Part shown: positions 6,129 through 20,744 of the stretch, one piece after another
How positions within the stretch are numbered: position 1 is the first letter of the stretch
Layout of the letters: each line of letters begins with the position of its first letter
Assembly (NCBI GenBank): GCA_902805545.1
Contig: CADCTD010000176.1
Location: forward strand, 1-33,858
Source: an uncultured Craurococcus sp.
Lineage (GTDB): Bacteria > Pseudomonadota > Alphaproteobacteria > Acetobacterales > Acetobacteraceae
Direction of reading: 5' to 3'
DNA length: 33,858 nt
Notes under the pieces: model-generated
The model's database searches: none
What the model saw: the letters and a program-made list of their open reading frames with translations, nothing else
Told to the model about the DNA's origin: nothing
Program-made: the position numbers and the translations under genes

Positions 6129-7496
6129 TTACGCTTTAACAATATGCGGCCCGGTCAGGCCGAGCCGGGCGCAGACATTGCGGGTGTCGACCAGGAGGGG
6201 CAGCGCCGCGGCGAGCGTTGCATAGTCGATGTCGTCATGGTCGGTGACGATGAGGCCCGCCGCGAAGTCCGAAAACGCCTCCCGCCCCTGGCCGATGCTG
6301 CGGCGGCCAGCGAGGCGCGGGTGCTCGGCCTGCGGCGGGATCACTGGCACCAGCGGGTCGAGATGGCGGACCTCGGCGCCGCGCGCCTCCAGCATCTCCA
6401 TCAGCACCAGGGCGGGACTGTGGCGGAGGTCGTCGAGGTTGCGCTTGTAGCCGAGGCCGATGACGAGGATCCGGCTGCCGCGGAGGCCCCGGCCCTGGGT
6501 GCGGTCCAGCGCCTCGGCCAGGCGGTCGAGCACATGGCGGGGCATCGCTGCGTTGATCTCGCTGGCGAGGTCGATGAAGCGGGTGGCGACGCCATGCGCC
6601 CGGGCCTGCCAGGTGAGGTAGTGCGGGTCGACCGGGATGCAGTGGCCGCCGAGGCCGGGGCCGGGGAAGAAGGGCATGTAGCCGAAGGGCTTGGTGCGGG
6701 CGGCTTCGATCACCTCCCAGATGTCGATTCCCATCGGCTCGAAAACCAGCTTCAGCTCGTTCATCAGCGCGATGTTGACGGCGCGGAAGGTGTTCTCCGT
6801 GAGCTTCACCGCCTCCGCCACATCGGCCGAGGCGACCGGGACGGTGCGGGCGACGAAGGCGCCGTAGAGGGCCAGCGCCAGGTCGAGCGAGGCCGGGTCC
6901 GTCCCGCCGATGACCCGGGGGATGGTGGCGGTGCGGTGCTGGGCATTGCCCGGGTCCTCCCGCTCGGGCGCATGGGCCAGGAAGACATCGCGGCCGCAGC
7001 GGAGGCCGGTTTCCTCGAGGATCGGCTGCATCACGCTGCGGGTGGTGCCGGGATAGCTGGTCGACTCGAGGATGATGAGCTGGCCCGGGCGGAGATGGGC
7101 TGCGATCAGGCGGGTGGCGGATTCGACGGCCGAGAGATCCGGCTCCCGGTGCGGGCCGAGCGGCGTCGGAACGCAGACCAGGATGGCATCCGCCTCGGCA
7201 AGGGCCCTCCCCTCCCCGGTCAGGCGAAGCCGGCCGGTCTCGAGCGCCGCGGCAATGGCGCCGGGCGCGAGCTGGCGGAGAGGGCTGCGGGCGGCGGCGA
7301 GATCGGCGATGCGGGCGGGGTTCGAGTCGAGGCCGATGGCGTGGAAGCCGGCTTCGACGAGGGTGAGGATCAGCGGCAGGCCGACATAGCCGAGGCCGAT
7401 GACCGCGATGGTCGCGTCCCGCATGCGGAAGCGGGTGGCGAGCGACTCCAGCAGCCCGGCGGAATGCGGCAGGAAGGGCGGGAGCGAATCCGGCAT
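6129..7496 (-). CDS. UDP-sugar 6-dehydrogenase (UDP-GlcNAc/UDP-ManNAc/UDP-glucose type)
   Basis: This 455-residue enzyme of the UDP-glucose/GDP-mannose dehydrogenase family oxidises the C6 hydroxyl of a UDP-sugar to a uronic acid using NAD+. The NAD-binding motif is IAVIGLGYVGLPL (GLGYVG at 34-39). The middle domain includes ESTSYPGTT and the ELKLVFEPMGIDIWEV helix. The catalytic Cys286 lies in GLGGHCIPVDPHY, and the C-terminal domain has LVIGLGYKRNLDDLRHSP. The whole resembles the WbpA/TviB branch that acts on N-acetylated sugars, but the substrate cannot be fixed from sequence alone. ATG at 7496 gives the usual short helix before the Rossmann fold. Its product would be a donor for surface glycans, which fits the glycosyltransferases in the neighbouring RTX locus. 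Confidence 0.88.
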   Translation of the reverse strand: MPDSLPPFLPHSAGLLESLATRFRMRDATIAVIGLGYVGLPLILTLVEAGFHAIGLDSNPARIADLAAARSPLRQLAPGAIAAALETGRLRLTGEGRALAEADAILVCVPTPLGPHREPDLSAVESATRLIAAHLRPGQLIILESTSYPGTTRSVMQPILEETGLRCGRDVFLAHAPEREDPGNAQHRTATIPRVIGGTDPASLDLALALYGAFVARTVPVASADVAEAVKLTENTFRAVNIALMNELKLVFEPMGIDIWEVIEAARTKPFGYMPFFPGPGLGGHCIPVDPHYLTWQARAHGVATRFIDLASEINAAMPRHVLDRLAEALDRTQGRGLRGSRILVIGLGYKRNLDDLRHSPALVLMEMLEARGAEVRHLDPLVPVIPPQAEHPRLAGRRSIGQGREAFSDFAAGLIVTDHDDIDYATLAAALPLLVDTRNVCARLGLTGPHIVKA

Positions 7497-7640: not shown

Positions 7641-10322
7641 TCAGACGAAGAGGAAGTCGCCGAGGGTGAGCGCGCCATCGGCCAGGATGGTGATCTGGCC
7701 CGCCTCGGAGTCGAGGGAGACCTCGCCATCCGCGGTGAAGGTGAGGTCGTCGGCGGTGATGCCCACGAACTCCAGCTTGTCGACGCCCGCCTTGAAGTCG
7801 AGGATAATGTCGCTGCCGAAGCTGCCCGAGAAGCGGAAGGTGTTCGCCCCGGCGCCGCCCGTCATGACATCGTCGCCCGTGCCACCGAGGATGGTGTCGG
7901 CCCCGGCACCGCCGGTGATCTCGTCATTGCCGGCGCCGCCGTCGAGCAGGTTGCCGGCGTCGCTGCCGGTGATGGTGTCGTTGCCGGCGCCAGTCCTGAC
8001 GCCTTCGATCGAGACGAGGCTGAGGGCGAGGGCCGGGCTGGCCGGCTGGGTCAGATCGATCGCCTGCGAGGTCCCGATCGCGCTGTTGTCCAGGATGTCG
8101 AAGTCCGCGCCGCCATCCAGCGTGCCGCTGGCGAACCCGGCGAAGGTGTCGGCCCCGTTGCCGCCGGACGCCGTATCGGTGCCGCCGCCGTAGTTGAACA
8201 GGTCGTCTCCGTCGCCGCCTTCCAGCAGATTGGCGCCGGTTCCGCCATCGATGGTGTCGCCGCCCTCACCGCCGAGGACGATATCGTCGCCGGCACCGCC
8301 CATCAGGCTGCTACCGGTCGACCCACCCATGATGAAGTCGTCACCCGAACCACCGTCGATCGTGTCGGCCCCGCCGCCGCCGGTGATCTCGTCATTGCCG
8401 GCGCCGCCCTCGAGCAGATTGGCCGCATCGTTGCCGGTGATGGTGTCGCTGCCGGCGCCGGTCCTCACACCCTCGATCGAGACCAGGTTCAGGTCGAAGG
8501 CCGGGCTGAACGGCTGGGTCAGATCGATCGCCTGGGAGGTCCCGATCGCGCTGTTGTCGAGGATGTCGAAGTCCGCACCGCCATCGAGCGTGCCGCTGGT
8601 GAACCCGACGAAGATGTCAGCCCCGTTGCCGCCGAGCACCGTATCCGTGCCGGCACTACCAAGGAGGGAATCCGCCCCGTCGCCGCCGACGATGTAGTCG
8701 TTGCCGTCATCGCCAGAGATGGTATCGGCGCCAGCGCCACCAATGATCGTGTCCGCATCGGCGCCGCCACGGGCCTGGGCGCCGTCGCCGCCGAGGCGGA
8801 TCTCGTCGCTGCCTGCGCCGCCGTCGATGGTATCGGCCCCGCCGCCGCCGAGGATGTAGTCGCTGCCGTCGTCGCCGGAGATGCTATCGGCGCCGGCGCC
8901 GCCGATGATGACGTCCGCGTCGGCGCCGCCACGGGCCTGGGCGCCCTCGCTACCGAGGCGGATCTGGTCGCTGCCCGCGCCGCCGTCGATGGTATCGGCC
9001 CCGCCGCCGCCGACGAGGTAGTCGTTGCCGCCGTCGCCGGAGATGCTGTCAGCGCCGGCGCTACCAATGATGACGTCTGCGTCCGCGCCGCCACGAGCCT
9101 GGGCGCCGTCGCCGCCGAGGCGGATCTCGTCGCTGCCTGCGCCGCCGTCGATGGTATCCGCCCCGCCGCCGCCGACAAGGTAGTCGTTGCCGTCGTCACC
9201 GGAGATACTGTCGGCACCGGCGCCGCCGATGATGACGTCCGCGTCGGCGCCGCCACGAGCCTGGGCTCCCTCGCCACCGAGACGGATCTGGTCGCTGCCC
9301 GCGCCGCCGTCGATGGTATCGGCTCCGCCGCCACCGACGAGGTAGTCGTTGCCGTCGTCACCGGAGATGCTGTTGGCGCCGGCGCCGCCGATGATGACGT
9401 CCGCGTCCGCGCCGCCACGAGCCTGGGCGCCCTCGCCGCCGAGGCGGATCTCGTCGCTGCCTGCGCCGCCGTCGATCATATCGGCCCCGCCGCCGCCGAC
9501 GAGGTAGTCGTTGCCGCCGCCACCGCTCACGCTGTCAGCACCGGCACCGCCGATGATGACGTCAACATCCGCACCACCGACCAGGGTGCTCGCGGAGCCG
9601 CTGCCGAAAATGGAGTTGGCGCCGTCGCCGCCGTCGATCGAGTCGGATCCAGCGCCGTAGATGATATCCGCACCGATGCCACCGAGGATGGTCGCGGCCG
9701 CGGACGCACCGATGAGCAGGTCGTCGCCTTCGCCGCCGATCATCAGGGTCGTGGCGGTGCCGGCGCGCACGGTATCGTTGCCTGCACCGCCATCAACGGA
9801 GGCCGGCGCGCCCCAGATCTCGTCGCCGAAATCGGTGGCGATGATCCTCTCGAAGCCGTTGAAGTAGACGTCGCTGCCGACGATGGTGCCCGCCGCTGCG
9901 TAGATCACGTGCCCCTGGGCGGCGTTCGACATGTCGAAGGTGTCGGTGCCGCTGCCGGCGAGGATCGCGCCGCCGACGCCCTCGGTCCAAGCGACCGTGT
10001 TGTTGCCGTTGCCGACATTGATGTAGTTCGCGCCGCCGCCGGCGATGATCGTGTCGTTGCCGGCGCCAGTGATGATCTGGTCACCCAGCGCGGTCGGGCC
10101 GACATCGGAAGCGGCAGTTACGAAGTGGTTGCCATCGCTCAGATGCGCCTCGTCGGCACCAGTGCCGAGATCGACGAGGTTATCGCCGAGACCGGCCCAG
10201 ATGGTGTCGTTGCCGGCGCCGGCGACGATCGTGTCGTTGCCGGTCAGCGCCAGGATCTCGTCGTCATCCGGCGTACCCAGAAGACTGTCGGAGCCGGTCG
10301 TGCCGGGAATAATGTTGGCCAT
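7641..10322 (-). CDS. Large RTX calcium-binding protein, predicted type I secretion substrate
   Basis: This 893-residue protein is built mostly from RTX nonapeptides of the form GGxGxDxxx, which fold into calcium-loaded beta-rolls outside the cell. It has no N-terminal signal peptide. Residues 1-250 are a looser RTX region. Residues 249-518 are five 54-residue tandem units, followed by a sixth decayed unit. Two copies of a 97-residue block containing DILDNSAIGTSQAIDLTQP come next, 156 residues apart. The C-terminus (NTFRFSGSFGSDIILDFKAG onward, ending GDFLFV) matches the type I secretion signal type, an acidic residue then a hydrophobic tail. I see no enzymatic domain, so a surface or matrix role is likely. 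ATG at 10322 was chosen because GGGGG lies about 9 bases upstream and the product starts directly in RTX-like sequence. The gene diverges from the RTX-exporter arm. Confidence 0.9.
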   Translation of the reverse strand: MANIIPGTTGSDSLLGTPDDDEILALTGNDTIVAGAGNDTIWAGLGDNLVDLGTGADEAHLSDGNHFVTAASDVGPTALGDQIITGAGNDTIIAGGGANYINVGNGNNTVAWTEGVGGAILAGSGTDTFDMSNAAQGHVIYAAAGTIVGSDVYFNGFERIIATDFGDEIWGAPASVDGGAGNDTVRAGTATTLMIGGEGDDLLIGASAAATILGGIGADIIYGAGSDSIDGGDGANSIFGSGSASTLVGGADVDVIIGGAGADSVSGGGGNDYLVGGGGADMIDGGAGSDEIRLGGEGAQARGGADADVIIGGAGANSISGDDGNDYLVGGGGADTIDGGAGSDQIRLGGEGAQARGGADADVIIGGAGADSISGDDGNDYLVGGGGADTIDGGAGSDEIRLGGDGAQARGGADADVIIGSAGADSISGDGGNDYLVGGGGADTIDGGAGSDQIRLGSEGAQARGGADADVIIGGAGADSISGDDGSDYILGGGGADTIDGGAGSDEIRLGGDGAQARGGADADTIIGGAGADTISGDDGNDYIVGGDGADSLLGSAGTDTVLGGNGADIFVGFTSGTLDGGADFDILDNSAIGTSQAIDLTQPFSPAFDLNLVSIEGVRTGAGSDTITGNDAANLLEGGAGNDEITGGGGADTIDGGSGDDFIMGGSTGSSLMGGAGDDIVLGGEGGDTIDGGTGANLLEGGDGDDLFNYGGGTDTASGGNGADTFAGFASGTLDGGADFDILDNSAIGTSQAIDLTQPASPALALSLVSIEGVRTGAGNDTITGSDAGNLLDGGAGNDEITGGAGADTILGGTGDDVMTGGAGANTFRFSGSFGSDIILDFKAGVDKLEFVGITADDLTFTADGEVSLDSEAGQITILADGALTLGDFLFV
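7870..8160 (-). repeat. Downstream copy of a 468-base-spaced duplication in the RTX gene
   Basis: About 291 bases encoding the block from NGADTF to GTGDD recur at 8338-8628 with an offset of exactly 468 bases (156 codons). Stretches such as DILDNSAIGTSQAIDLTQP are identical in protein and nearly so in DNA. Edges are approximate. Confidence 0.8.
8338..8628 (-). repeat. Upstream copy of the 468-base-spaced duplication in the RTX gene
   Basis: This is the partner of the block at 7870-8160. It encodes NGADIF to GSGDD with the same DILDNSAIGTSQ core. The region between the copies holds ordinary RTX nonapeptides. Edges are approximate. Confidence 0.8.
8769..9578 (-). repeat. Five tandem 162-base units inside the large RTX gene
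   Basis: The phrase GATGGTATCGG or a close variant recurs at 8826, 8988, 9150, 9312 and 9474, exactly 162 bases apart, which defines five 54-codon units. A sixth, diverged unit continues to about 8607. The units alternate in a few residues, for example SDE/SDQ and GGD/GGE. This indicates repeated unequal duplication, so copy number may vary between strains or be collapsed in assemblies. Confidence 0.9.
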
Positions 10323-10398
10323 CAAGGCGCCCCCAAAGCTGCGAAGCGAACAGAAGCCGCCCCATCCGCGGGACGCCCCATTCAACCGATACCGGCTT

Positions 10399-10427
10399 TT
10401 AATACGGGATTCACAACCGCTGGTGAA
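10399..10427 (-). promoter_or_regulatory. Candidate promoter of the large RTX gene
   Basis: On the minus strand TTCACC (10427-10422) and TATTAA (10404-10399) are separated by 17 bases, each matching 4 of 6 sigma-70 consensus positions. They lie about 75 bases upstream of the RTX start at 10322, in an AT-richer stretch. The -35 element overlaps one copy of the CAACCGCTGGT repeat. Confidence 0.35.
10414..10424 (+). repeat. CAACCGCTGGT element, copy 1
   Basis: This 11-base sequence occurs identically at 10682-10692 in the same intergenic region. The core ACC-GCT-GGT is itself an inverted repeat. One copy sits on each candidate divergent promoter, as expected for a shared regulator of both RTX genes, but this is inference from position. 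Confidence 0.4.
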
Positions 10428-10477
10428 GAAGGCACACCGTCTCAATTTGTACCGGAGATAGAGAAACAAGCCCGAAA

Positions 10478-10492
10478 CTCATTGGTAATGAG
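10478..10492. promoter_or_regulatory. Inverted repeat CTCATT-GGT-AATGAG between the RTX genes
   Basis: Perfect 6-base arms flank a 3-base centre, near the middle of the divergent region. The size and symmetry are those of a small operator. No known regulator can be named. Confidence 0.35.
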
Positions 10493-10510
10493 CACCATCG
10501 GAGCTTCCTT

Positions 10511-10524
10511 TCGCGATTTCGCGA
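10511..10524. promoter_or_regulatory. Symmetric element TCGCGA-TT-TCGCGA between the RTX genes
   Basis: Two copies of the palindrome TCGCGA are separated by TT, giving a 14-base symmetric site about 20 bases from the CTCATT inverted repeat. It is a candidate operator. A further short palindrome, TGAC-TT-GTCA, lies at 10643-10652. The rest of the 433-base interval from 10323 to 10755 holds no credible gene. Confidence 0.3.
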
Positions 10525-10669
10525 TCTTGTCTCCTGACAGGTCAGCTCGTTCGGCTTCGGCTGTGCATAAGGGAAAACTCAGGCGCGCTGTGTCGCGGCA
10601 TGAGGAAGCCTCCGTCTCCGACCGCGCCTGAGTCCGGTGTAATGACTTGTCACTTTCGGTGCCTCCAGA

Positions 10670-10697
10670 TTGACCATTATGCAACCGCTGGTTAAAG
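10670..10697 (+). promoter_or_regulatory. Candidate promoter of the rightward RTX-exporter operon
   Basis: TTGACC (10670-10675) and TTAAAG (10692-10697) are 16 bases apart, a fair sigma-70-like pair about 60 bases upstream of the RTX start at 10756. The second copy of CAACCGCTGGT (10682-10692) lies between the two boxes. Confidence 0.35.
10682..10692 (+). repeat. CAACCGCTGGT element, copy 2
   Basis: Identical to 10414-10424. It sits inside the spacer of the candidate rightward promoter. Here the flanking base extends the symmetry to AACC-GCT-GGTT. Confidence 0.4.
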
Positions 10698-10755
10698 ATC
10701 ACTTTCATAGGACGGCGCCTCGTTGGCGCTCGGCATCGGCGGTGGGGTATTGGTC

Positions 10756-11601
10756 ATGGCGGATTTTGCATCGGTTGCGGGGGGCGGTACCTACGACCTC
10801 GCCCAGTTCAGCTCGGTCCCGGGCGGCGTTGACGCGTTTTACCACATCGAGACGGGTGGCCTCTTCATCGATCGTGGCCTCTCGACCGGCAACACCCAGG
10901 TCGATGCCAGCGGCGCCAGCGGCGGCGTCGCGTTCAAGGATGGCTCGGTCGACAACGGCCCGGGCTTCGGCTTCCAGGGCAGCGCATTTGCCGACACCGT
11001 CAACGCAGGCGGCGGCGACGACAGCATCTCGGCCGGCGGCGGCAACAACTACGTCACCGGTGGCGACGGCAATGACTCGATCACGGCAGGCGACGGCAAT
11101 GACACGCTGATCGGTGGCTCTGGCAACGACCAGATCTTCGGCGGCAACGGCAGCAACAACATCCAGGGCGGTGACGGCAACGACACCCTGGCTGGTGGCA
11201 CCGGCAATGACAGCATCTCCGGCGGCGTCGGCGATGACAGCATCTGGGGCGGTGCCGGCAACGACACGCTGCTCGGTGGCGACGGCTTGGATACGCTGGC
11301 GGGCGGCGCCGGCAACGACATGCTCGTCGGTGGCGGCGGCGCCGACCTGTTCACCTACGAGCAGGGCTTCGGCGGCAGCGACACGATCGTGGGCTTCAGC
11401 TACGGCGAGGATGTCGTGCAGATCAAGGCCGGCATGGACGGCGTCAACAGCCTGAGCGACCTGGCCGGCAAGATCACGGTGGACGGCTCGGGCGTGAAGA
11501 TCACCCTGAGCGGCGGCGACACCATCCTCATCAAGGGCGTGACCGGCGCAAGCGCCACCGACCTGATTGCGAACCCGGAGAGCTGGATCAAGATTGTCTA
11601 G
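10756..11601 (+). CDS. Small RTX calcium-binding protein, predicted type I secretion substrate
   Basis: This 281-residue protein has no signal peptide. Its unique N-terminal domain is residues 1-82 (MADFASVAGGGTYDLAQFSS onward). Thirteen uninterrupted RTX nonapeptides follow at residues 83-199, for example TGGDGNDSI, IGGSGNDQI and WGGAGNDTL. The 82-residue C-terminal domain ends in PESWIKIV, a plausible uncleaved type I export signal. Secreted RTX domains fold on binding calcium outside the cell. The ATG at 10756 is preceded by GGGG about 11 bases upstream; an in-frame TTG at 10723 is less likely. It is the first gene of the rightward cluster that continues into glycosyltransferases and an exporter, which makes it the most likely dedicated cargo. 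No catalytic domain is recognisable. Confidence 0.88.
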   Translation: MADFASVAGGGTYDLAQFSSVPGGVDAFYHIETGGLFIDRGLSTGNTQVDASGASGGVAFKDGSVDNGPGFGFQGSAFADTVNAGGGDDSISAGGGNNYVTGGDGNDSITAGDGNDTLIGGSGNDQIFGGNGSNNIQGGDGNDTLAGGTGNDSISGGVGDDSIWGGAGNDTLLGGDGLDTLAGGAGNDMLVGGGGADLFTYEQGFGGSDTIVGFSYGEDVVQIKAGMDGVNSLSDLAGKITVDGSGVKITLSGGDTILIKGVTGASATDLIANPESWIKIV

Positions 11602-11611
11602 CAGCCAGCTC
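11580..11611 (+). other. Weak inverted repeat spanning the small RTX gene stop
   Basis: GAGCTGG (11580-11586) can pair with CCAGCTC (11605-11611) across an 18-base loop that contains the stop codon. There is no T tract. It might reduce read-through from the abundant cargo message into the downstream genes, but the stem is short. Confidence 0.25.
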
Positions 11612-11653
11612 CAGGTAAAGACTGCAGAAAGCTTTCCCTGATACCCGTGCCTC

Positions 11654-13885
11654 ATGATGACGGGGGCAAGGGTTCTGAATACGACCGACCCGATGCCGGC
11701 GACATCCTCGGATGTCGCCGGTTGCGCTTCTGCCGTGCTGCTGGCGCTCTCGCCCGCCGTTGCGCTGCTCGTCCTGAAGGGCGGGCTTCCGGGCGTCGAT
11801 ACCGGCAGCCTCTCCCTCACCTCCGCCTATGGGCCGATCCAGCCTCCCATGTCCTGGCATTCCGTGCCGGGGACGGAACCGCCGCTCTCGCTGCTGCTGC
11901 TGCGGGCGCAGCCGGGGCTCGCGGTGGGCGAGCCCCTGGAGGCGAGCGACGAGGCCGGCGGGCGACTGAGGCTGCTCCTCGGGCCGGGCACGATCGCCGG
12001 TGAGTTCGATGGGTTGGCCCCGGCCGCGATCCTGCGCGTGGCCGGCTTCCTTGCCTCGCGCGAGCGGCGGCTGCTGCGTGGCGTCGAGGACCCGGCCTTC
12101 GCCGCGGCATGCCATGACGTTGCAGGGCTCGCCCCCGCGCCGGAGCGGATGGCAAAGCCCGTCGCGCTCTGCGGGGCGGATGCGGTGCTCTGGTCCCTCC
12201 CCCGCGGCCTGGCGGCGGAGCCCGCCACCTCCTACGTCATCGGCCGGCACAGGGTCCGGCAGGTCAGTCACGCGGCCGGGGCGCTGGTTCTGGCCGACCG
12301 CGGATTCGAGGGCGCGTTCCTGGTGCCGGCCGGGGCTGAGGGGCCGATTCGCCTCGCGCCCACGCCGGCCAGGCTGCCGACGCTCGGGGATCTGGCCCGG
12401 CGGCAGGATCCGGCCGGGCGCAGCCTCTACCGCCTGGCGACGACCGAGCTGGCGCGGCGTGCCCAGGCGGAGGAGGAGGCGCGGCGGCTGCTGCGGGACC
12501 ATCAGCTCGTGCAGCCGGCGCAGCAGGCAGCGCATGTCAGCCAGCCGGAGGAACCCTTCGGCGGGGCGCTCGAGCTCGCGGTCGATGATCACGGAGGCGG
12601 GCTTTTCCTGCGCGGCTGGCTGCGGGATCCGCTCGGGCTGGTCGGGCGGCTCGTCCTGCAGGGGCGATTCGGCGAGCAGAGGCTGCTGCCGGAGCAGATG
12701 CTCCGATTCCCGCGGCCGGACATCGTCAAGAAGTACACCGAGGCGCCGCATGGGGCGCCGGAGGTGAAGGCCGGCTTCATCGCGCATCTGCCGCGGGCGG
12801 CCTTGCGGCCCTCGGCCCAGTGGCGGCTGCAGGTGAAGCTCAGCACGGGCGATGAGGTGGCGCTGGTGGCGCCGCCGGCCATCACGACGCCGCTGCTGGC
12901 GCGCGACCGGGTGCTGGGCGGCATCGCGCCGGTGCATGTCACGCCGGAGATCATGGCCCGCTGCATTGCCCCGCCGGTGGAGCGGCTGCATCGGCGGGTG
13001 ATGGCGGCGCGGCAAGCGCCGGAGGTGGTGCGCATCGGCAAGCCGGTTGCGGCGCCGGCGGTCAGCCTGGTGATCCCGATCTATCGCAACGTCTTCTACC
13101 TGCGGCATCAGCTTGCGGCCTTCGCGCGGGATGCGAGCCTCGACGAGGCCGAGCTGGTCTTCGTGCTCGACAGCCCGGAGCAGCGGGAGGATCTGGAGCA
13201 CAACCTGCGGGGCTACCGCGGCATCGGCGGCAGGCCGGTGACCTTGGTCGTGCAGCCGGCCAATTACGGCTACGGCAGCGCCTGCAACGCGGGCGCCGCG
13301 GAGGCGCGGGCGCCCATCCTGCTGCTGCTGAACTCCGATGTGGTTCCGGCGCGGCGCGGCTGGCTGCGGCCGTTGCTCGGCATGCTCGAGGCCGCGCCGG
13401 ATGTCGCCGCGGTGGGGCCGAAGCTGCTCTACGGCAACGACTCGCTGCAGCATGCTGGGCTCTACTTCGAGCGGCTCGGCGACGGCGGCGATTGGTACAA
13501 CAGCCACTACTACAAGGGCCTGCCGCGCCATTTCCCGGCGGCGGATGTCGCGCGGGAGGTGCCGGGCATCACCGGCGCGGCCTTCTGCGTGCGGCGGGCG
13601 GCCTTCGAGGCGGTGGGCGGGGTTACCACCGACTATGTCGTCGGCGACTACGAGGATTCGGATCTCTGCCTGAAGCTGCGGGCGGCGGGGCATCGCATCG
13701 CCTACGTGCCGGGCTCGGAACTCTATCATTTCGAGCGGCAGTCGATCACGCTGCATGGCGGCTACGCCAAGACGCTGACGGCCGCCTATAACCGCGGCCT
13801 GCATCATCGCCGCTGGGCGGATGACATCGCGGCGCTGATGGCGCGGGATTGGCCGGCGGGCACGCTGCCGGGTGACGGGGCATGA
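11654..13885 (+). CDS. Large GT2 glycosyltransferase with N-terminal unknown region and GW module
   Basis: This 743-residue protein has three parts. Residues 1-300 resemble no family I know. At about residues 305-380 there is a beta-rich module with RGWLRDP (320-326), related in pattern to the module in the membrane protein at 15230-15946. A family 2 glycosyltransferase domain fills about 470-720. It starts VSLVIPIYRN, contains the metal-site-like NSD (560-562) and ends with the GDYEDSDLCLKLRAAGH acceptor region (Glu667, Asp668). Such enzymes transfer a sugar from a nucleotide donor in the cytoplasm. It lies 52 bases after the small RTX gene and overlaps the next glycosyltransferase by 4 bases (ATGA). 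The substrate is unknown: either polysaccharide synthesis or glycosylation of the RTX cargo is possible. The start codon has no clear ribosome-binding site. Confidence 0.85.
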   Translation: MMTGARVLNTTDPMPATSSDVAGCASAVLLALSPAVALLVLKGGLPGVDTGSLSLTSAYGPIQPPMSWHSVPGTEPPLSLLLLRAQPGLAVGEPLEASDEAGGRLRLLLGPGTIAGEFDGLAPAAILRVAGFLASRERRLLRGVEDPAFAAACHDVAGLAPAPERMAKPVALCGADAVLWSLPRGLAAEPATSYVIGRHRVRQVSHAAGALVLADRGFEGAFLVPAGAEGPIRLAPTPARLPTLGDLARRQDPAGRSLYRLATTELARRAQAEEEARRLLRDHQLVQPAQQAAHVSQPEEPFGGALELAVDDHGGGLFLRGWLRDPLGLVGRLVLQGRFGEQRLLPEQMLRFPRPDIVKKYTEAPHGAPEVKAGFIAHLPRAALRPSAQWRLQVKLSTGDEVALVAPPAITTPLLARDRVLGGIAPVHVTPEIMARCIAPPVERLHRRVMAARQAPEVVRIGKPVAAPAVSLVIPIYRNVFYLRHQLAAFARDASLDEAELVFVLDSPEQREDLEHNLRGYRGIGGRPVTLVVQPANYGYGSACNAGAAEARAPILLLLNSDVVPARRGWLRPLLGMLEAAPDVAAVGPKLLYGNDSLQHAGLYFERLGDGGDWYNSHYYKGLPRHFPAADVAREVPGITGAAFCVRRAAFEAVGGVTTDYVVGDYEDSDLCLKLRAAGHRIAYVPGSELYHFERQSITLHGGYAKTLTAAYNRGLHHRRWADDIAALMARDWPAGTLPGDGA

Positions 13886-15135
13886 CGGCGATGCGCGTGC
13901 TCTTTCTCTGCCACAACCACCCGACGCTCCAGCCTGGCGGGACGGAAGTCTTCGCCCGCAACCTGTTCCGCGAGTTGCGCGACCGGCACGGGGTGGAGGG
14001 GCTGTTCCTCGCCGCCGTCACCAGCGCCCACCGCGAGCCGCTGCCGGGAACGGTGGTGCAGGCGGTCGGCCAGGCGACCGATGAGATGCTGCTCTGGCTG
14101 AACAGCTTCGACCGGTTCTTCCTGTCGCAGCCGGATACCTATGGGCTGGCGACGCTCGCCCCGCTGGTCGAGGCGCTGGCACCGGATGTGGTGCATGTCC
14201 ACCACGCGCTGCAGCTCGGCACCGAGACCATCGACCTGGTGCGGCGGCTGGCGCCGCGGGCGCGCTTCGTCTTCACCGCGCATGACTTCTTCCCGATCTG
14301 TCCGCAGGAGGGGCAGCTGCTCACCACGGACGGGCGGCTCTGCTCGGGGCCGACGCTCGATGGCTGCCTGCGCTGCTTTCCGGACCGGGGGGCGACGGAT
14401 ATCGTCATGCGGCAGCTCGAGCTGCGTGATGCCTTCGCCGATTTCGACCATATCCTGGTGCCGAGCGCCTTCGCTCGCGGGCGCTATGTGGCGAGCGGAT
14501 GGCCGGCAGAGCGTTTCAGCGTCATGCCGAACGGCGTGCCGGAGCTGCCGGCGGCGCCCTTCCGCGCGGCGCCGGATGGGCGGCGGGACCGGTTCGGCTT
14601 CTTCGGCCACATCAACCGGTTCAAGGGCAGCCTGATGCTGCTGCGCGCCTCGCTCCGGCTGAGCGAGGCGGGCGTCGCGCACCGCGTCACGCTGAACGGT
14701 GGCGCGGCCTACCAGTCCGATGCCTTCATGTCGGAGTTCAACGCCGCCCTCGCCGCGGCACCGGCGGCCAACTACCGCGGCGCCTATGTGGCCGAGGAGT
14801 TGGCCAGGCTGATGGAGCAGGTGGATTGGGTGGTGATCCCCTCCATCTGGTGGGAGAACGCGCCGCTCGTGGTGCAGGAAGCCTTCCGCCATCGCCGCCC
14901 GGTCATCTGCAGCGGCATCGGCGGCACGGCCGAGATGGTGCGCGACGGCGTCGACGGGCTGCATGCGCCGGTGAAGGACCCGGCCGGGCTCGCCGAGGTG
15001 ATGCGCCGGGCAGTCGAGACCGAAGGGTTGTGGGAGCGGCTGGTCGAGGGCATCGCCCCGCCGGTGACGCTGGCCGAGACGGCTTACCGGCACCTTAAGT
15101 TGTATAAAGCTGCGCTGGCGGACGCTCCCCGTTAG
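13882..15135 (+). CDS. GT4-family glycosyltransferase
   Basis: This 417-residue enzyme has the GT-B fold of family 4. The N-terminal domain starts MRVLFLCHNHPTLQPGGTE, with the Gly-Gly-Thr-Glu typical of the acceptor-binding loop, and contains DVVHVHHALQLG and FTAHDFFPICP. The C-terminal domain has GFFGHINRFKG and the nucleotide-sugar binding E-x7-E motif at Glu325 and Glu333 (WENAPLVVQEAF), followed by GGTAEMVRDGVDGL. There is no membrane segment, so it works in the cytoplasm or at the membrane surface. Its start overlaps the GT2 gene as ATGA, so the two enzymes are probably made together and act on the same glycan. Confidence 0.92.
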   Translation: MTAMRVLFLCHNHPTLQPGGTEVFARNLFRELRDRHGVEGLFLAAVTSAHREPLPGTVVQAVGQATDEMLLWLNSFDRFFLSQPDTYGLATLAPLVEALAPDVVHVHHALQLGTETIDLVRRLAPRARFVFTAHDFFPICPQEGQLLTTDGRLCSGPTLDGCLRCFPDRGATDIVMRQLELRDAFADFDHILVPSAFARGRYVASGWPAERFSVMPNGVPELPAAPFRAAPDGRRDRFGFFGHINRFKGSLMLLRASLRLSEAGVAHRVTLNGGAAYQSDAFMSEFNAALAAAPAANYRGAYVAEELARLMEQVDWVVIPSIWWENAPLVVQEAFRHRRPVICSGIGGTAEMVRDGVDGLHAPVKDPAGLAEVMRRAVETEGLWERLVEGIAPPVTLAETAYRHLKLYKAALADAPR

Positions 15136-15148
15136 AATGCAGCCCGAT

Positions 15149-15169
15149 CCGGGGCGCCTGCCGCCCCGG
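15149..15169 (+). other. GC-rich hairpin between glycosyltransferase and exporter genes
   Basis: CCGGGGCG (15149-15156) pairs perfectly with CGCCCCGG (15162-15169) around a 5-base loop, 13 bases after the GT4 stop. No T tract follows. It may attenuate transcription or stabilise the message between the two halves of the cluster. Confidence 0.4.
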
Positions 15170-15229
15170 GATGTCATCTGGTCGAGCGCACTGCCCTGAC
15201 AGGGGCCTGCTCAAGGGAAGTTTTCGCCG

Positions 15230-15946
15230 ATGCCGATGGATGCCACGCTGGCCGAGGAAGCCCCACCGGCGGGAGAGGCGGTCGCCCCCTCCGATCTGCG
15301 CGGGCTGATCGACAACGCCACGGCCGATCGCCTCTACGGCTGGGTCTGGGATGCGGCGCATCCGGGCTACCGGGTGACGGTGGAGCTGCGCCTGGCGGGC
15401 GAGGTGGTGGCCACCGGCATCGCCGGCAACCAGCGGCCGGACCTCGCCAGGCACGGCATCGGCGATGGCGGCCATGCCTTCGAGTTTGCCCTGCAGCGCC
15501 AGTGGTTCCGCCAGCTGCGGGATCTCACCGTCATCGCCCATGGCCGCGACGGCACCACCATGCAGGTGCCGGTGCATGCCCGCCGGCAGGAGGAGGCGCT
15601 GGTGCCGGCCACGGCCACGGCGCAGCTGCAGGTCGCGGCCGAGGCGCTGATCGGCGAGCAGGCCGCCATCCGGCAGGAGATGGAGGCGATGCGCCGGCGC
15701 ATCGCCGGCCTGCCAAACAACGCGGCGCTCGAGGCCGTCGCCCAGGCCGGGCAGGAGATGCAGCGCCGGGTGGACACGATGGAGCTCTGGCTCACCCGGC
15801 TGGACGACAAGCTGGCGCAGCTCGCGGCGCCGCCGGAGCCGGGGGCGAAGGGCGGGGTCGATGTCTGGCAGGTGGTGCTGATCGCGCTGCTCGTCGGCCT
15901 CGGTTGCGGCGTCATGGCCTTCATCTTCGCCCGCTACGGGGCCTAG
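15230..15946 (+). CDS. C-terminally anchored membrane protein with GW module and coiled coil
   Basis: This 238-residue protein has no known name. Residues 20-90 form a module with the pattern L(R)GLIDNAT...GWVWD (37-41)...VELRLAGEVVATGIA...RPDLARHGIGDGGHAFEF. I know this pattern as an uncharacterised domain common in alphaproteobacterial glycosyltransferases and surface-polysaccharide proteins. Residues 120-200 are rich in Ala, Gln, Glu and Leu with heptad-like spacing, probably a coiled coil. The last 27 residues are one transmembrane helix (212-234) followed by only RYGA, so the protein should be tail-anchored with its domain in the cytoplasm. GGGAAG lies about 10 bases before the ATG; ATG at 15236 is an alternative. 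It ends 4 bases before the first ABC gene, so a role beside the exporter is likely, perhaps as an adaptor. That role is inference. Confidence 0.75.
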   Translation: MPMDATLAEEAPPAGEAVAPSDLRGLIDNATADRLYGWVWDAAHPGYRVTVELRLAGEVVATGIAGNQRPDLARHGIGDGGHAFEFALQRQWFRQLRDLTVIAHGRDGTTMQVPVHARRQEEALVPATATAQLQVAAEALIGEQAAIRQEMEAMRRRIAGLPNNAALEAVAQAGQEMQRRVDTMELWLTRLDDKLAQLAAPPEPGAKGGVDVWQVVLIALLVGLGCGVMAFIFARYGA

Positions 15947-15950
15947 GCCC

Positions 15951-17687
15951 TTGGCCCGCGCGACGCTCGAGAGCGGCCTCCAGACCACGCTGTCGGAGGC
16001 GATGGCCTCCGTCCGGCACACGGTCCGGCGGCTGGTGGCCTTCCTGGTGATGCTGGGGCTCTTCGCCGCGGGCGCGGGCTTCGCCATGGTCGAGACGGGG
16101 GCGACGCTGCTGGTTTCCGTGCCGCAGACGCGGAGCGCGGAGACGGCCGTCACCATCCTCTGCGTCTGGGCGCTGCTGCTGGTGATCGCCGCGGCGCTCG
16201 GGCTGCACCAGGGGGCAGGGCTGCGGCGGCTCGGGCGGTTCGTCGCGGGGCGGCTGGGCGTGGCGACGGCGGTGGCCATGGCGCAGCGGGCCGGACGGCC
16301 GGAGGCGATCGGCAGCGCGGCGCTCGAGGATCTCGCCGTGTTGCGCCGGGGCGTCGCGGGGCTGGCCGCGCGGGCGCTGGTGCAGATCCTCGCCCTGCCG
16401 CTGCTGATCCTGCTCGCCTTCGCGGTGCATTGGGCCTTCGCCGTGCTGGCGATGCTGTTCTACGGCGTGGCCGGGCTGCTGAGCCATGCGCTGGTCGCCG
16501 CGCTGCGGCGGGAGATGGAGCTGATGCGGGCCGGCGGCGCGCAGGCGCAGGGCCTTGCCGCCGATGCGATGCGGGCCGGCGAGGCGATCCTCGCCATGGG
16601 AATGCTGCCGCGGCTCGCAGGGAGCCTGCTCTCGACCGAGGCGGAGGCGGCGGGCGAGGCCTTCCTCGCGCGGCGGCGGGCGAGCCGGCTGCGTTTCGGG
16701 CTGGATGCGGTGCTCGGCCTGTTCGGCGGCAGCTTCCTGTTCCTGATGGCCTTCCTCGTCCTGGGCGAAATGGCCGGGCGCAGCGTCGGGATGGGGTTTT
16801 TCTTCCTCACCTTCGCCCTGATCGGGCCCTTCGCCGCCTTCGCCGGCAGCAGCCGGGAGGTGGCGGAGGCGATGGCGGCCTGGCAGCGGCTGCGGCGGAT
16901 GCTGGCGGAGACGCCGAGCTTCAACCGCGGCACGGCCTTCCCCTGCCCGCAGGCGCGGCTGGTGGCGGAGCACATGACCTTCACCTTCCGCGGACTGCAG
17001 CCGGTGCTGCTGCGCAATGTGGACCTGGCGCCCGAGCCGGGCGAGGCGGTGGCGATCGTCGGCCCTTCCGGCTGCGGCAAGTCGACGCTGCTGCGGGTGC
17101 TGGTCGGGATGTTCCCGCCCTCCGCCGGCGGCGTCTATCTCGACGGACATGCGGTGCACCAGTGGGACCGCGAGGCGCTGGCCGGGCATCTCGGCTTCCT
17201 GCCGCAGCAGCCGCTGCTCGGGCGCGGGACGGTGGCGGAGGTCATCGCCCGGCTCGGCACGCCGGACATGGCGCAGGTGCTGGAGGCGGCGCGGCGGGCG
17301 GGGGTGCATGAGGCGGTCGCCGCCCTGCCGCTCGGCTATGCGACGCCGGTGGACGGGGCCTGGCCGCTCTCGATGGGGCAGCAGCACCGGCTGGCGCTGG
17401 CCCGGGCGCTCTATCGGCGGCCGCGGGTGCTGGTACTGGACGAGCTGGCCGCCGGGCTGGATGCGGCGGGCGAGGCGGAAGTGATCTTCCTCCTCGCCGA
17501 GTTGCGGCGGGAGGGGGTGGCGGTCGTCTTCACGACGCATCGGCCGGCGCTGGTCGGCGCGGCGGACCGGGTGCTGGCGCTGCGCAACGGCTCGCTGGTG
17601 CGGGCGGGGGCGCAGGACGGCCCGCCGCGGCTCGGCGCGGCGGCGCAGGCGCCGATGCTGCCGGGGCGGAAGGCGGCGGCGGCATGA
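15951..17687 (+). CDS. Type I secretion ABC exporter subunit A (half transporter)
   Basis: This 578-residue protein has an N-terminal membrane domain with about six helices (residues 20-290) and a C-terminal nucleotide-binding domain. It has no C39 peptidase or C39-like domain, so it resembles the short PrtD/AprD-type exporters. Walker A is GPSGCGKST (371-379), the Q-loop is GFLPQQP, Walker B is VLVLDE with Glu498, and the H-loop His is at 530. The ABC signature is LSMGQ (473-477) instead of LSGGQ, an atypical third residue. The start is TTG at 15951, just 4 bases after the upstream stop; an ATG near 16002 is possible. It is followed with a 4-base overlap by a second, different half transporter, so the two probably form a heterodimer in the inner membrane. 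Confidence 0.85.
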   Translation: MARATLESGLQTTLSEAMASVRHTVRRLVAFLVMLGLFAAGAGFAMVETGATLLVSVPQTRSAETAVTILCVWALLLVIAAALGLHQGAGLRRLGRFVAGRLGVATAVAMAQRAGRPEAIGSAALEDLAVLRRGVAGLAARALVQILALPLLILLAFAVHWAFAVLAMLFYGVAGLLSHALVAALRREMELMRAGGAQAQGLAADAMRAGEAILAMGMLPRLAGSLLSTEAEAAGEAFLARRRASRLRFGLDAVLGLFGGSFLFLMAFLVLGEMAGRSVGMGFFFLTFALIGPFAAFAGSSREVAEAMAAWQRLRRMLAETPSFNRGTAFPCPQARLVAEHMTFTFRGLQPVLLRNVDLAPEPGEAVAIVGPSGCGKSTLLRVLVGMFPPSAGGVYLDGHAVHQWDREALAGHLGFLPQQPLLGRGTVAEVIARLGTPDMAQVLEAARRAGVHEAVAALPLGYATPVDGAWPLSMGQQHRLALARALYRRPRVLVLDELAAGLDAAGEAEVIFLLAELRREGVAVVFTTHRPALVGAADRVLALRNGSLVRAGAQDGPPRLGAAAQAPMLPGRKAAAA

Positions 17688-19381
17688 GCGCGAGCATCTC
17701 CAACCGGCGCAGCTGGCTGCGGGCCATGGGGCTCGGGCCGGGAAGCGTGCTGGCGATCCTGCTGCTGAGCCTTGGCGGCGTGCTCGGCCTGTTCGACCTG
17801 GTGCTCAGCGTCGCGCACATCACCGATGGCGTACTGGAGAGCAAGAACGGCAACACGGTGCTGGCGCTGCTGCTGGTCTTCGCGCTGGCGACGCTGCTCT
17901 CGGCCTATTACCGCCACCGGCGCGAGGCGCTGCTGCAGGCGATGGCGGAGCGGCTCGGCCTCGCGCTGCGGGCGGAGGCGCTGCAGGCGGCGATCCGGCG
18001 GGCGGCGCGGCGCGACATGGTGGCGGGGCTCGGCGTGCTGCAGGACGTCGCGGCGGCGCAGCGCCTCATCGCGGGCGAGGCGGTGGCGGGGCTGCTCGAC
18101 CTCGCGGGCGCAGCGGCGGCGGTCGCGCTCGTCTTCCACCTGAATCCGGGCTTCGGCTGGATCCTCCTGGCGGGGATGGCGGCGACGGCGGTGCTCGCCC
18201 TGGTGCTGCAGCGGGTGGCGGGGCCGGCCGGGGCCAAGGCGGAGGCGGAGATGGGCGCCGCGGCGCATGAACTCGCCGGGCAGCTCGTGCACGCCGACCT
18301 GGCGCGCGGGCTCGGCCAGGTGCCGGCACTGCTGGCGCGCTGGCAACAGCGCTCCGAGGCGGCGCTCGGCCTTGCGGAGCTGGCGGAGGCGCGGGGGGAT
18401 GCGCTGCGCGAGCTGCAGGCGCTGGCCGCGGCGCTGACCGCGATCGGGCTGATCGGCTTCGGCATCCTTGAGATCATCGAGGGGCGGGGGACGATCGGGC
18501 TGGTGCTCGGCGCCGTGCTGCTCGGGCAATTCGCGCTGCGGCCGCTGGCCGGGCTGGTGCAGCATTTCGAGGCCTGGCAGGCCGGGACGCGCGCCTGGGG
18601 GCGGCTGCGCCGGGCGCTGGCGGAGGAGGCGGAGGTCGTCGCCCGGCCGCCGGTCGCCGGGGCGCCGGACGGGCTGGTCGCCGAGGGGCTCGGCTTCCAC
18701 CCGGCGGGACCGGACCGGCCGATCCTCGCCGGGCTCGGCTTCGCCCTGGCGCCGGGGGAGGTGCTGCTGGTCGAGGGCGGCAACGGCGCGGGCAAGACGA
18801 CGCTGCTGCGCCTCCTCCTCGGCCTGGTGCCGCCCGATGCGGGGCGGGTGCTGCTCGACGGGCAGGACACCTGCTTCTGCGACCGCAGCGTGCTCGGGGC
18901 GCGGATCGGCTACCTGCCGCAGGATATCCAGCTGCTGGAGGCGGATATCTTCACCAATATCGGCCGCGGGCCGGGGGCGCCGGCGGAGCTGGTGGTGGCC
19001 GCGGCGCGGATGGCTGGCGCGCATGAGATGATCGGCCGGCAGCCGATGGGCTACCAGACCCAGGCGGGCAACAGCGCCGGGCTCTCGGCCGGGCAGCGGC
19101 GGCTGGTCGGGCTGGCGAGGGCGCTCTACGGCATGCCGCGGCTGCTGGTGCTGGACGAGCCGGAGATCGGCCTCGACGGCGCGGCGCGGCGGGCGATGCG
19201 GGCGGCGGTGAGCCAGGCGAGCGCGGCGGGTGCTGTCGTGATCCTGGTGACGCATGAGCCGGCGACCTGGGCGGACCTCGCCGGGCACCGGCTGCGGCTG
19301 GAGGCGGGCGGCGGGTTCGAATGGCTCGCCGGCGGGCCTGGCGAGGCAGGAATGGAGCAGCATCGTGCAGCAGCTGGTTAA
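17684..19381 (+). CDS. Type I secretion ABC exporter subunit B (half transporter)
   Basis: This 565-residue half transporter has a membrane domain (about residues 15-300) and a nucleotide-binding domain. Walker A is GGNGAGKTT (365-373), the Q-loop is IGYLPQDIQL, the signature is LSAGQ (467-471) as in PrtD-type exporters, Walker B Glu is 492 and the H-loop His is 524. The pattern GYLPQDIQLLEADIFTNI is characteristic of type I secretion ATPases. It is clearly different in sequence from subunit A, so the pair is not a recent duplication. The ATG overlaps the upstream stop as ATGA. Its 3' end overlaps the membrane fusion gene by 17 bases, which ties the three into one translational unit. Confidence 0.88.
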   Translation: MSASISNRRSWLRAMGLGPGSVLAILLLSLGGVLGLFDLVLSVAHITDGVLESKNGNTVLALLLVFALATLLSAYYRHRREALLQAMAERLGLALRAEALQAAIRRAARRDMVAGLGVLQDVAAAQRLIAGEAVAGLLDLAGAAAAVALVFHLNPGFGWILLAGMAATAVLALVLQRVAGPAGAKAEAEMGAAAHELAGQLVHADLARGLGQVPALLARWQQRSEAALGLAELAEARGDALRELQALAAALTAIGLIGFGILEIIEGRGTIGLVLGAVLLGQFALRPLAGLVQHFEAWQAGTRAWGRLRRALAEEAEVVARPPVAGAPDGLVAEGLGFHPAGPDRPILAGLGFALAPGEVLLVEGGNGAGKTTLLRLLLGLVPPDAGRVLLDGQDTCFCDRSVLGARIGYLPQDIQLLEADIFTNIGRGPGAPAELVVAAARMAGAHEMIGRQPMGYQTQAGNSAGLSAGQRRLVGLARALYGMPRLLVLDEPEIGLDGAARRAMRAAVSQASAAGAVVILVTHEPATWADLAGHRLRLEAGGGFEWLAGGPGEAGMEQHRAAAG

Positions 19382-20744
19382 GCATGGCGAGGCCGCGGCG
19401 CTGCCGGCCTCCCTCCCCCAGGAGTCGCTGCAGAAGCAGCTGGAGCGGGCGGTGCAGAGCCCGCCGGTCCATCGGCTGGTGCGGCGCTCGCTGCTGACGC
19501 TCGCCATCACCCTGCTGCCGATCGCGGGCTGGGCGACGATGACCGTCGCCGAGCGGGCGGTGCTGGCCGGCGGGCAGCTCGTGCCCGAGGGGCGGCGGAA
19601 GACCGTCAACCTGCTGGAGCCGGGCATCCTGCGCCGGCTGCTGGTGCAGGAAGGGACGATGGTGCAGGCCGGGCAGCCACTGCTGCAGCTCGACGTGACG
19701 CAGGCGGAGGCGACGGCAGGGCAGGCCAAGGCGGCCTATTGGAGCGGGCGCGCGCGCATTGCCCGGCTGCGGACGGAGCAGGCGGAGCAGAGGCAGCTCG
19801 CCTTCCCGGTCGATCTCGAGGCGGAGGCGAAGGCGGATCCGGCGATCCAGGTCTTCCTCCGCGCCGAGCAGGCGCTGTTCGCGGCGCGCTGGGCGAATTT
19901 CGACGGACAGGTCGGCGTGCAGGAGCGGGCCATCACCCAGCTGCAGGAGCAGGTGGCCGGCGCGCAGGCGCAGCGCGAGGGTGCCGGACGGCAGCTGATG
20001 GCCGTGCGGGAGCAGATCGCGGGCTACAACCGGCTGCTGACGCAGGGCTATGCCTCGCGCTTCACCGTGTTGAACCTGCAGCAGCAGGAGGCGGGCTTCG
20101 TCGCCACGATCGGGCAGGCGAATGCGCAGGAGGCGCAGCTGCGCGAGGGCATCATCCAGGCGCAGCGGCAGCTCGAGGGGCTGCGGCTGACGCGGCTCTC
20201 CGAGATCGCCAACGACATGCAGGCCACCGAGGCGACGACGGCCGCGGCGCTGCAGCAGCTGCGCGCGGCGCAGGACGTGCTGAACCGGCGCGAGGTGCTG
20301 TCGCCGGAGGCCGGCACGGTGACGAACATCCAGGCTTTCACCCCAGGGGCGACGATCCAGACCGGGCAGCCGATCCTCGACCTGGTGCCGCTGAACGACC
20401 GGCTGGTGATCGAGGGGAGGGTGCAGCCGACGGATATCGAGCAGGTCGCAGTCGGGCAGCGGGCGAATATCCGGCTGAGCAGCTACCGCACGCGCAACGT
20501 GCCGATGCTGCAGGGGCAGGTGATCGTCGTCGGCGCCGATGTGCAGGTGCCGCCGAACAACAACGGCAACCCGTATTTCCTCGTGCGGGTGGAGTTCGAT
20601 CCTGGGCAGCTGGACTCGGTGCCGGACCTGGCGCCGGTCGCGGGCATGCCGGCGGAGCTGTACATCCTCGGCGAGCGACGCACGCCCTTCGCCTATCTCT
20701 GGGGCCCGCTGAGCGCTGCGGCGCGGCGCGCCCTGCGGGATTAG
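19365..20744 (+). CDS. HlyD/PrtE-type membrane fusion protein
   Basis: This 459-residue periplasmic adaptor has a short cytoplasmic N-terminus, one transmembrane helix (about 42-61) and a lipoyl half-motif (NLLEPGILRRLLVQEGTMVQAGQPLLQLD). A long Gln/Ala/Glu-rich coiled-coil hairpin follows (about 100-310), then the second lipoyl half and beta-barrel (SPEAGTVTNIQAFTPGATI, VQPTDIEQVAVGQ). Such proteins join the inner-membrane ABC exporter to a TolC-type outer membrane channel. The GTG at 19365 was chosen because GGAG lies 7-8 bases upstream and the reading frame starts inside the preceding gene. No TolC gene follows, so the channel must be encoded elsewhere. Confidence 0.92.
   Translation: MQQLVKHGEAAALPASLPQESLQKQLERAVQSPPVHRLVRRSLLTLAITLLPIAGWATMTVAERAVLAGGQLVPEGRRKTVNLLEPGILRRLLVQEGTMVQAGQPLLQLDVTQAEATAGQAKAAYWSGRARIARLRTEQAEQRQLAFPVDLEAEAKADPAIQVFLRAEQALFAARWANFDGQVGVQERAITQLQEQVAGAQAQREGAGRQLMAVREQIAGYNRLLTQGYASRFTVLNLQQQEAGFVATIGQANAQEAQLREGIIQAQRQLEGLRLTRLSEIANDMQATEATTAAALQQLRAAQDVLNRREVLSPEAGTVTNIQAFTPGATIQTGQPILDLVPLNDRLVIEGRVQPTDIEQVAVGQRANIRLSSYRTRNVPMLQGQVIVVGADVQVPPNNNGNPYFLVRVEFDPGQLDSVPDLAPVAGMPAELYILGERRTPFAYLWGPLSAAARRALRD

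Follow-up and report, generated by a model that had tools for sequence, protein, structure and literature searches.

A pared-down relative of the galactoglucan wgd-wge module with two ABC genes in an uncultured Craurococcus sp. of the Acetobacteraceae

The dependence of a surface polysaccharide on an exported RTX protein is represented by the galactoglucan cluster of the alfalfa symbiont Sinorhizobium meliloti, for which a paper by Moreira in 2000 reportedly names, in its title, a need for a WgeA-type protein and its type I exporter in galactoglucan ‘biosynthesis or secretion’. In this wgd-wge module, formerly called expD-expE, the RTX protein WgeA (ExpE1) is described as secreted and calcium-binding. 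Its export by WgdA-WgdB has been reported to be needed for exopolysaccharide II (EPS II, galactoglucan) in S. meliloti, and a tolC mutant without galactoglucan was explained by missing WgeA secretion (PMC2912261). Another component, WgeE/ExpE5 (SMb21310), is listed as a putative membrane protein (PMC12542648). Here, we describe a locus of this kind in a 33,858-nucleotide stretch of DNA from an uncultured Craurococcus sp. (contig CADCTD010000176.1 of assembly GCA_902805545.1; the whole stretch is hereafter the window). At positions 10756-20744, a small RTX protein (RTX2), a family 2 and a family 4 glycosyltransferase (GT2 and GT4), a tail-anchored protein with a GW domain, two half ATP-binding cassette (ABC) exporters (ABC1 and ABC2) and a HlyD protein are all encoded in one direction, while a larger RTX gene (RTX1) is divergent (Table 1). 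The kind of system is already known as the galactoglucan wgd-wge module, of which the locus is a reduced, two-transporter variant; new are the reduced form of the module, the splitting of its transporter into two co-inherited halves and a core shared with six further families. The literature searched yielded no study of this locus or of any wge module from Acetobacteraceae. We give a probability of roughly 0.6 to the reading that this Acetobacteraceae version works through a heterodimeric export of RTX2 that would be needed for glycan assembly or release, with the GW protein as a tether.

When named plasmids were searched with GW proteins, matches were found in Sinorhizobium, Azospirillum, Ensifer and Phyllobacterium, plus a small number of further genera. 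The match on pSymB of S. meliloti 1021 lies in a stretch (L160) whose genes run ABC, HlyD, RTX, GT2, methyltransferase-like, GT4, GW, a 720-aa protein, GT4 and a 325-aa protein, and the row of an annotated sister strain is identical. A wgeA promoter site and a wgeH site have been placed at 980325-980305 and 970887-970867 of pSymB, respectively (PMC12542648). In L160, the map position of the RTX gene is 980278 and lower, that of the final gene in the row is 970797 and lower, and the wgeH site lies 70-90 bases ahead of the latter. Because these positions match the two published sites, L160 is the wg (galactoglucan) cluster; the letters between wgeA and wgeH were assigned from gene order. RTX2 shares 45% identity over 208 aa, reaching the C-terminus, with the WgeA-position protein, GT2 shares 40% over 429 aa with the WgeB-position protein, GT4 43% over 412 aa with the WgeD-position protein and the GW protein 34% over 173 aa with the WgeE-position protein, which is also the single match of the GW profile on pSymB (E 1.8e-54). 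By homology, RTX2 corresponds to WgeA, GT2 to WgeB, GT4 to WgeD, the GW protein to WgeE, the ABC proteins to WgdA and HlyD to WgdB. The window thus holds a WgeA-type RTX gene next to a WgeB-type GT2 gene, WgeD-type GT4 and WgeE-type genes in the same operon, and a WgdA/WgdB-type exporter. In a table of best matches to the L160 genes, compiled for the window and 28 other stretches, short contigs among them, WgeE was matched in 29 rows, WgdA in 27, WgeD in 26, and WgdB and WgeB in 24 each; WgeC, WgeF and WgeG were matched, weak matches aside, only in the fuller stretches. RTX, GT2, GT4, GW protein, PrtD-type ABC and HlyD are shared one to one with S. meliloti, but the window carries a pair of ABC genes where S. 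meliloti has a single one, and its exporter genes follow the glycosyltransferase genes, whereas those of S. meliloti precede the RTX gene.

Two other stretches of pSymB were considered as the exp cluster and rejected, since L173 (1376-1414 kb), despite its ABC-HlyD pair, lacks any RTX, glycosyltransferase or GW match, and in L174 (1148-1186 kb) a single RTX2 match of 43 bits is accompanied by no glycosyltransferase or GW match. Judged by its reading frames, L174 resembles the exo cluster. A tentative identification of the L160 RTX gene with SMb20838 was also dropped, because SMb20838 is placed in a capsule region (PMC4468178).

Conservation was followed in a sample of 200 Acetobacteraceae genomes, all of which have some ABC match, so that this count itself is uninformative. 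The ABC pair was found in at least 24 of them, and in 18 of these 24 the GW gene lies immediately upstream of ABC1; GT4 is upstream in all 18 and a WgeB-type GT2 in 17, the contig of G050 ending first. In three more genomes (G027, G108 and G177) the contig ends upstream of ABC1. Of the 16 genomes assessable for RTX2, 15 have it immediately before GT2, and HlyD follows the ABC pair wherever the contig reaches (15/15). As a control, 20 other loci from the same ABC search were drawn from 13 of the 18 genomes. One ABC gene followed by HlyD makes up 19 of these, and the remaining one (L142) is a lone ABC, a distant protein in the tree. None of the 20 matches the GT4 or GW profile or has a second adjacent ABC, with weak further ABC matches (91 and 94 bits) in L148 and L156, and a GT2 match of 22 bits lies about 4 kb away in one, L159. 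The gene combination is not a matter of chance, and because the control loci are without GT4 and GW matches, the sugar genes are tied to one exporter type and not to type I secretion generally. In the first-pass annotation, it was proposed from the window that RTX export is coupled to glycan assembly; this proposal is supported by the co-occurrence of glycosyltransferase and GW genes with the exporter (18/24 against 0/20 controls) and by the homology to S. meliloti wgd-wge, and it has a precedent, because WgeA secretion by WgdA-WgdB is needed for galactoglucan. The central proposal is thus largely right, whereas a glycosylated cargo and a surface layer, which that annotation also suggested, are conjectural.

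Some irregular loci were also observed among the compared genomes. Genome G172, which has a full locus, carries a second ABC1-ABC2-HlyD set on a 6.5-kb contig (L085, C73) with no GT2, GT4 or GW match there. In G121, a 406-aa gene of transposase-like appearance stands between the GT4 and GW genes (L065 8823-10043, - strand), and the GT2 of Belnapia moabensis is split over two frames (L002 6406-8651) by a break or a sequencing error.

Beyond the family, the GW-protein profile matches 26 of 385 genomes of the class, the own genome and one family member included, and many of these matches are through the beta domain alone. The 12 best places outside the own genome were taken for comparison and come from eight families; GW, WgeD-type GT4 and type I secretion genes stand in one stretch at 10 of the 12 loci, in six of the eight families, while L129 has glycosyltransferases and GW without an exporter and L138 holds GW and HlyD on a short contig. 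In all seven assessable loci outside Acetobacteraceae (four families), the WgeB-type GT2 comes after an RTX gene, and the ABC gene is single in 9/9 where the sequence passes beyond it. Several of the outside loci also have genes matching WgeC (a methyltransferase), WgeF and WgeG (the second GT4). In the p2 locus of Azospirillum brasilense Sp7 (L161), the row is a type I secretion ABC, HlyD, a calcium-binding protein, a glycosyltransferase, a methyltransferase, GT4, a WgeF-like protein, GT4, a pyruvyl transferase and GW; compared with the window, it has one ABC and a fuller enzyme set, the record giving family names alone. A polysaccharide pyruvyl transferase, annotated in L161, is confirmed by Pfam in L080, a locus of the Acetobacteraceae genome G176 with a fuller gene set; parts of such a set also appear on contig pieces of G050, G027 and G108. 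In a phylum sample of 398 genomes, any GW match was found in 39, and the seven near full-length matches (E<1e-40) are all from the own class. A WggR-like match is present in L130 and L131 of other families (156 and 158 bits), and the galactoglucan regulator WggR may, from such matches, travel with the module.

The paired ABC proteins of the window share 37% identity over 244 aa, chiefly in the ATPase domain. In an arbitrarily rooted tree of 24 ABC1 rows (two of them from G172, a near-identical G121 copy being omitted) and 22 ABC2 rows, ABC1 and ABC2 each lie on one side of a branch, with supports of 83 and 100, and nine of the ten single ABC proteins from sugar-linked loci lie near one another. 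The Walker A lysine, the Walker B aspartate and the signature serine are kept in all rows of both groups; in ABC1, the catalytic glutamate is Asp in 1/24 and the H-loop histidine is missing in 1/24, and in ABC2 the signature Gln differs in 3/22 and the signature Gly in 1/22. All these motifs are intact in both proteins of the window. This pattern would fit a single duplication within Acetobacteraceae and a heterodimer whose two sites both work, but is no proof of either. The first-pass annotation had held that PrtD-type systems normally use one ABC protein; this stands for 19 of the 20 controls, but type I systems with two ABC proteins are known, since the Vibrio MARTX system (RtxB, RtxD and RtxE) is likewise described as exporting its RTX cargo through a pair of ABC proteins with a single membrane fusion protein (PMC3034196). 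Unlike MARTX, the window has a 281-aa RTX-only protein as cargo, glycosyltransferases in the operon and ABC proteins nearest to PrtD instead of HlyB. A large MARTX toxin with rtxC is not seen; no acyltransferase occurs among the nine scanned proteins, and the RTX proteins match repeats only. A defence-system reading of the two ABC proteins was rejected, as PADLOC matches both through ATPase-domain models only.

At E<=0.01, neither Pfam nor NCBIfam assigns the GW protein to a family. Its AlphaFold2 model, built from 21 sequences (mean predicted local distance difference test, pLDDT, 78.7; predicted template modelling score 0.47), has a beta domain at about 23-112 with pLDDT mostly >90, long helices at 127-199 and a C-terminal helix at 212-237. 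This last predicted helix fits the C-terminal anchoring that had been suggested at first. However, the tail-anchored protein had also been presented as something a standard type I locus does not need, and as a novelty it falls away, for it is a relative of WgeE/ExpE5, already listed as a putative membrane protein (PMC12542648). In the galactoglucan literature consulted, no function was given for WgeE/ExpE5, which is likely to be the coupling part. GW-domain matches occur in 113 of the 200 Acetobacteraceae genomes, many within long open frames (>400 aa), and the domain is possibly an unnamed accessory domain of glycosyltransferases. In L139, outside Acetobacteraceae, it lies inside a GT2-like frame. 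The GT2 domain itself has many invariant residues across 17 aligned rows.

The mechanism that we favour is as follows. ABC1 and ABC2 would form one heterodimeric PrtD-type transporter, which, together with HlyD and a TolC encoded elsewhere in the genome (a homologue is found there above cut-off), would export RTX2. GT2 and GT4 would build a surface glycan, its identity conjectural, on the cytoplasmic side of the inner membrane, while the WgeE-type GW protein might hold these glycosyltransferases beside the exporter. Outside the cell, the exported RTX2 would fold with calcium and be needed for the assembly or release of the glycan, if the dependency of S. meliloti carries over.

Several observations weigh against this reading. 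The function of the locus in this organism is read from sequence, and the tethering is conjectural. The GW domain resembles the GT2 middle region weakly (hhalign probability 27%, E 7e-4), and four other GT2 segments have no similarity to it. Taken with the recurrent GW domains and L139, this faint resemblance fits a docking role for the GW protein and is suggestive of it. WgeC, WgeF, WgeG and WgeH, like WggR and WgcA, have no match in the window, WgeC having two partial matches elsewhere in the genome, and because of the lack of the first four, galactoglucan proper is probably not the product. By score alone, WgeA is closer to RTX1 (233 bits) than to RTX2 (146 bits, from the reverse comparison), which we put down to repeat number; as RTX scores are inflated by repeats, position is the better evidence for WgeA identity. 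In three genomes of one genus (G015, G106 and G161; L082, L083, L086 and L092-L094), the ABC pair and HlyD have no adjoining GW gene, which lies elsewhere without this GT2 and GT4, making three true exceptions among the 24, and in G166 RTX2 is absent from its usual place. The support of the ABC1 group is only 83%, the single ABC of L132 falls among the controls, and TIGR01842 (PrtD) is the best NCBIfam match of both ABC proteins, yet both lie below its cut-off of 510. The strong correlation between the inter-locus distances of ABC1 and ABC2 (r=0.96 over 22 loci, a value reached by 0/2000 permutations) speaks for the pairing, though shared descent alone is also expected to give a high value.

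A different reading, which we regard as unlikely but worth serious attention, is that RTX2 itself is the glycan acceptor: GT2 and GT4 would attach sugars to it in the cytoplasm, after which the GW protein would pass it to the type I exporter for secretion as a glycoprotein, similar to the accessory Sec system. This would agree with the finding of no flippase, polymerase or priming phosphoglycosyl transferase among the nine proteins of the window to which the family searches were confined, and with the RTX gene standing ahead of GT2 in 15/16 family genomes and 7/7 outside loci. Glycosylated RTX proteins such as SwmA and oscillin are on record (PMC3034196), and glycosylation before dedicated export is known for serine-rich repeat (SRR) proteins of Gram-positive bacteria, where cargo, glycosyltransferases and a dedicated exporter likewise act together (PMC7948813). 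The accessory Sec system, however, has a Sec-type exporter and demonstrated cargo glycosylation, whereas the window has a type I exporter and only putative glycosylation; moreover, the S. meliloti product is described as a polysaccharide, and no conspicuous Ser/Thr-rich acceptor stretch was seen by eye in the RTX2 alignment. A bolder form, which we likewise think unlikely and advance as speculation, makes the WgeA-type RTX a protein primer: soluble glycosyltransferases, held by GW/WgeE, would build the glycan on the unfolded RTX in the cytoplasm, and the type I exporter, here heterodimeric, would export the glycoprotein in one step. If true, this would place a further export route next to those by Wzx/Wzy, ABC-2 and synthase, and the dependence of galactoglucan on WgeA secretion would be accounted for.

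It is also doubtful that ABC1 and ABC2 work separately, each as a homodimeric exporter with a cargo of its own (RTX2 and RTX1). In favour of this, the Walker A lysine, the Walker B Asp and the signature Ser are present in every row of both groups, the H-loop His is lost from a single row, and the operon is flanked by two RTX genes; but there is only one HlyD, the ABC genes overlap by 4 bases in the window, and ABC1 and ABC2 are paired wherever the contig continues and co-diverge. In addition, the divergent RTX1-like gene is not seen at every locus while the ABC pair is, and the same module outside the family has one ABC in 9/9 assessable loci. An exporter that moves the glycan or a glycan-protein complex, with RTX2 merely a coupling or plug protein, is improbable: wgdA and wgdB have been described as potentially engaged in EPS II polymerization (PMC3233446) and expD1/expD2 mutants as blocked in synthesis and secretion (PMC1403797), but the prevailing view is that type I ABC exporters pass their polypeptide through in unfolded form (PMC8277102), and the RTX gene is retained at 15/16 assessable family loci. 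A chance or purely regulatory neighbourhood of sugar genes and RTX exporter, to which the commonness of GW domains (113/200 family genomes) and the genus with separated parts might point, is hardly credible given 18/24 against 0/20 controls and the same combination in 6/8 other families compared.

The genes and coordinates of the first-pass annotation, with the short overlaps and the 4-base gap, were all found as given. GT2/GT4 and ABC1/ABC2 overlap by 4 bases each and ABC2/HlyD by 17 bases, and 4 bases separate the GW stop from the ABC1 start. One point needs correcting: of the two RTX proteins that it put in the locus, RTX2, encoded immediately before GT2, is tied to the operon as the probable cognate cargo of its exporter, while RTX1 lies outside the operon on the opposite strand. 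Only RTX repeats were matched in either protein by Pfam.

Table 1. Features of the locus and its flank; the family searches (Pfam, NCBIfam) covered nine proteins of the window.
Feature	Position	Strand	Evidence
Nucleotide-sugar dehydrogenase (flanking)	6129..7496	-	TIGR03026, 396 bits (cut-off 190)
RTX1, large divergent RTX protein	7641..10325	-	PF00353, 27 HemolysinCabind stretches
RTX2, WgeA/ExpE1-type small RTX protein, 281 aa	10756..11601	+	4 HemolysinCabind stretches
GT2, WgeB-type glycosyltransferase with long N-terminal region	11654..13885	+	PF00535
GT4, WgeD-type glycosyltransferase	13882..15135	+	PF13692/PF13439
GW-domain tail-anchored membrane protein, WgeE/ExpE5-type	15230..15946	+	Homology to WgeE-position protein; AlphaFold2 model
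ABC1, PrtD/WgdA-like half exporter	15951..17687 (TTG start)	+	TIGR01842, 282 bits (below cut-off 510)
ABC2, second PrtD/WgdA-like half exporter	17684..19381	+	TIGR01842, 303 bits (below cut-off 510)
HlyD/WgdB-type membrane fusion protein	19365..20744 (GTG start)	+	TIGR01843, 288 bits (above cut-off 209)

Among named genomes, the closest ones found were four of Belnapia. A gene for an RTX protein on the opposite strand also adjoins the locus in L065-L068 and L071-L074, with a piece near the contig end in L069 and L070. RTX1 contains tandem repeats of 162 bases at 8670-9563 (5.5 copies, 88% matches) and of 468 bases at 7870-8850 (2.1 copies, 78%), and because of these the gene may vary in length by recombination. 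A homologue of the dehydrogenase lies beside the locus in L065, L066, L068 (cut off where the stretch ends), L075 and the named Belnapia loci L001, L002 and L004, and none was seen in the remaining Acetobacteraceae stretches compared, several of which end near there; a supply of uronic-acid donor by this enzyme is possible from its family. Rfam at the gathering score and a tRNA scan gave no matches.

A need for an RTX protein and a type I exporter was earlier reported for one symbiont, and the module now recurs in six further alphaproteobacterial families of the sample. RTX, GT2, GT4, the GW membrane protein, ABC and HlyD form the shared core, and in the lineage described here the module has two glycosyltransferases and a split transporter. 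The interest lies in this conserved core and in WgeE as its common part, and the question of why an RTX protein and its type I exporter are needed becomes testable in a seven-gene system.

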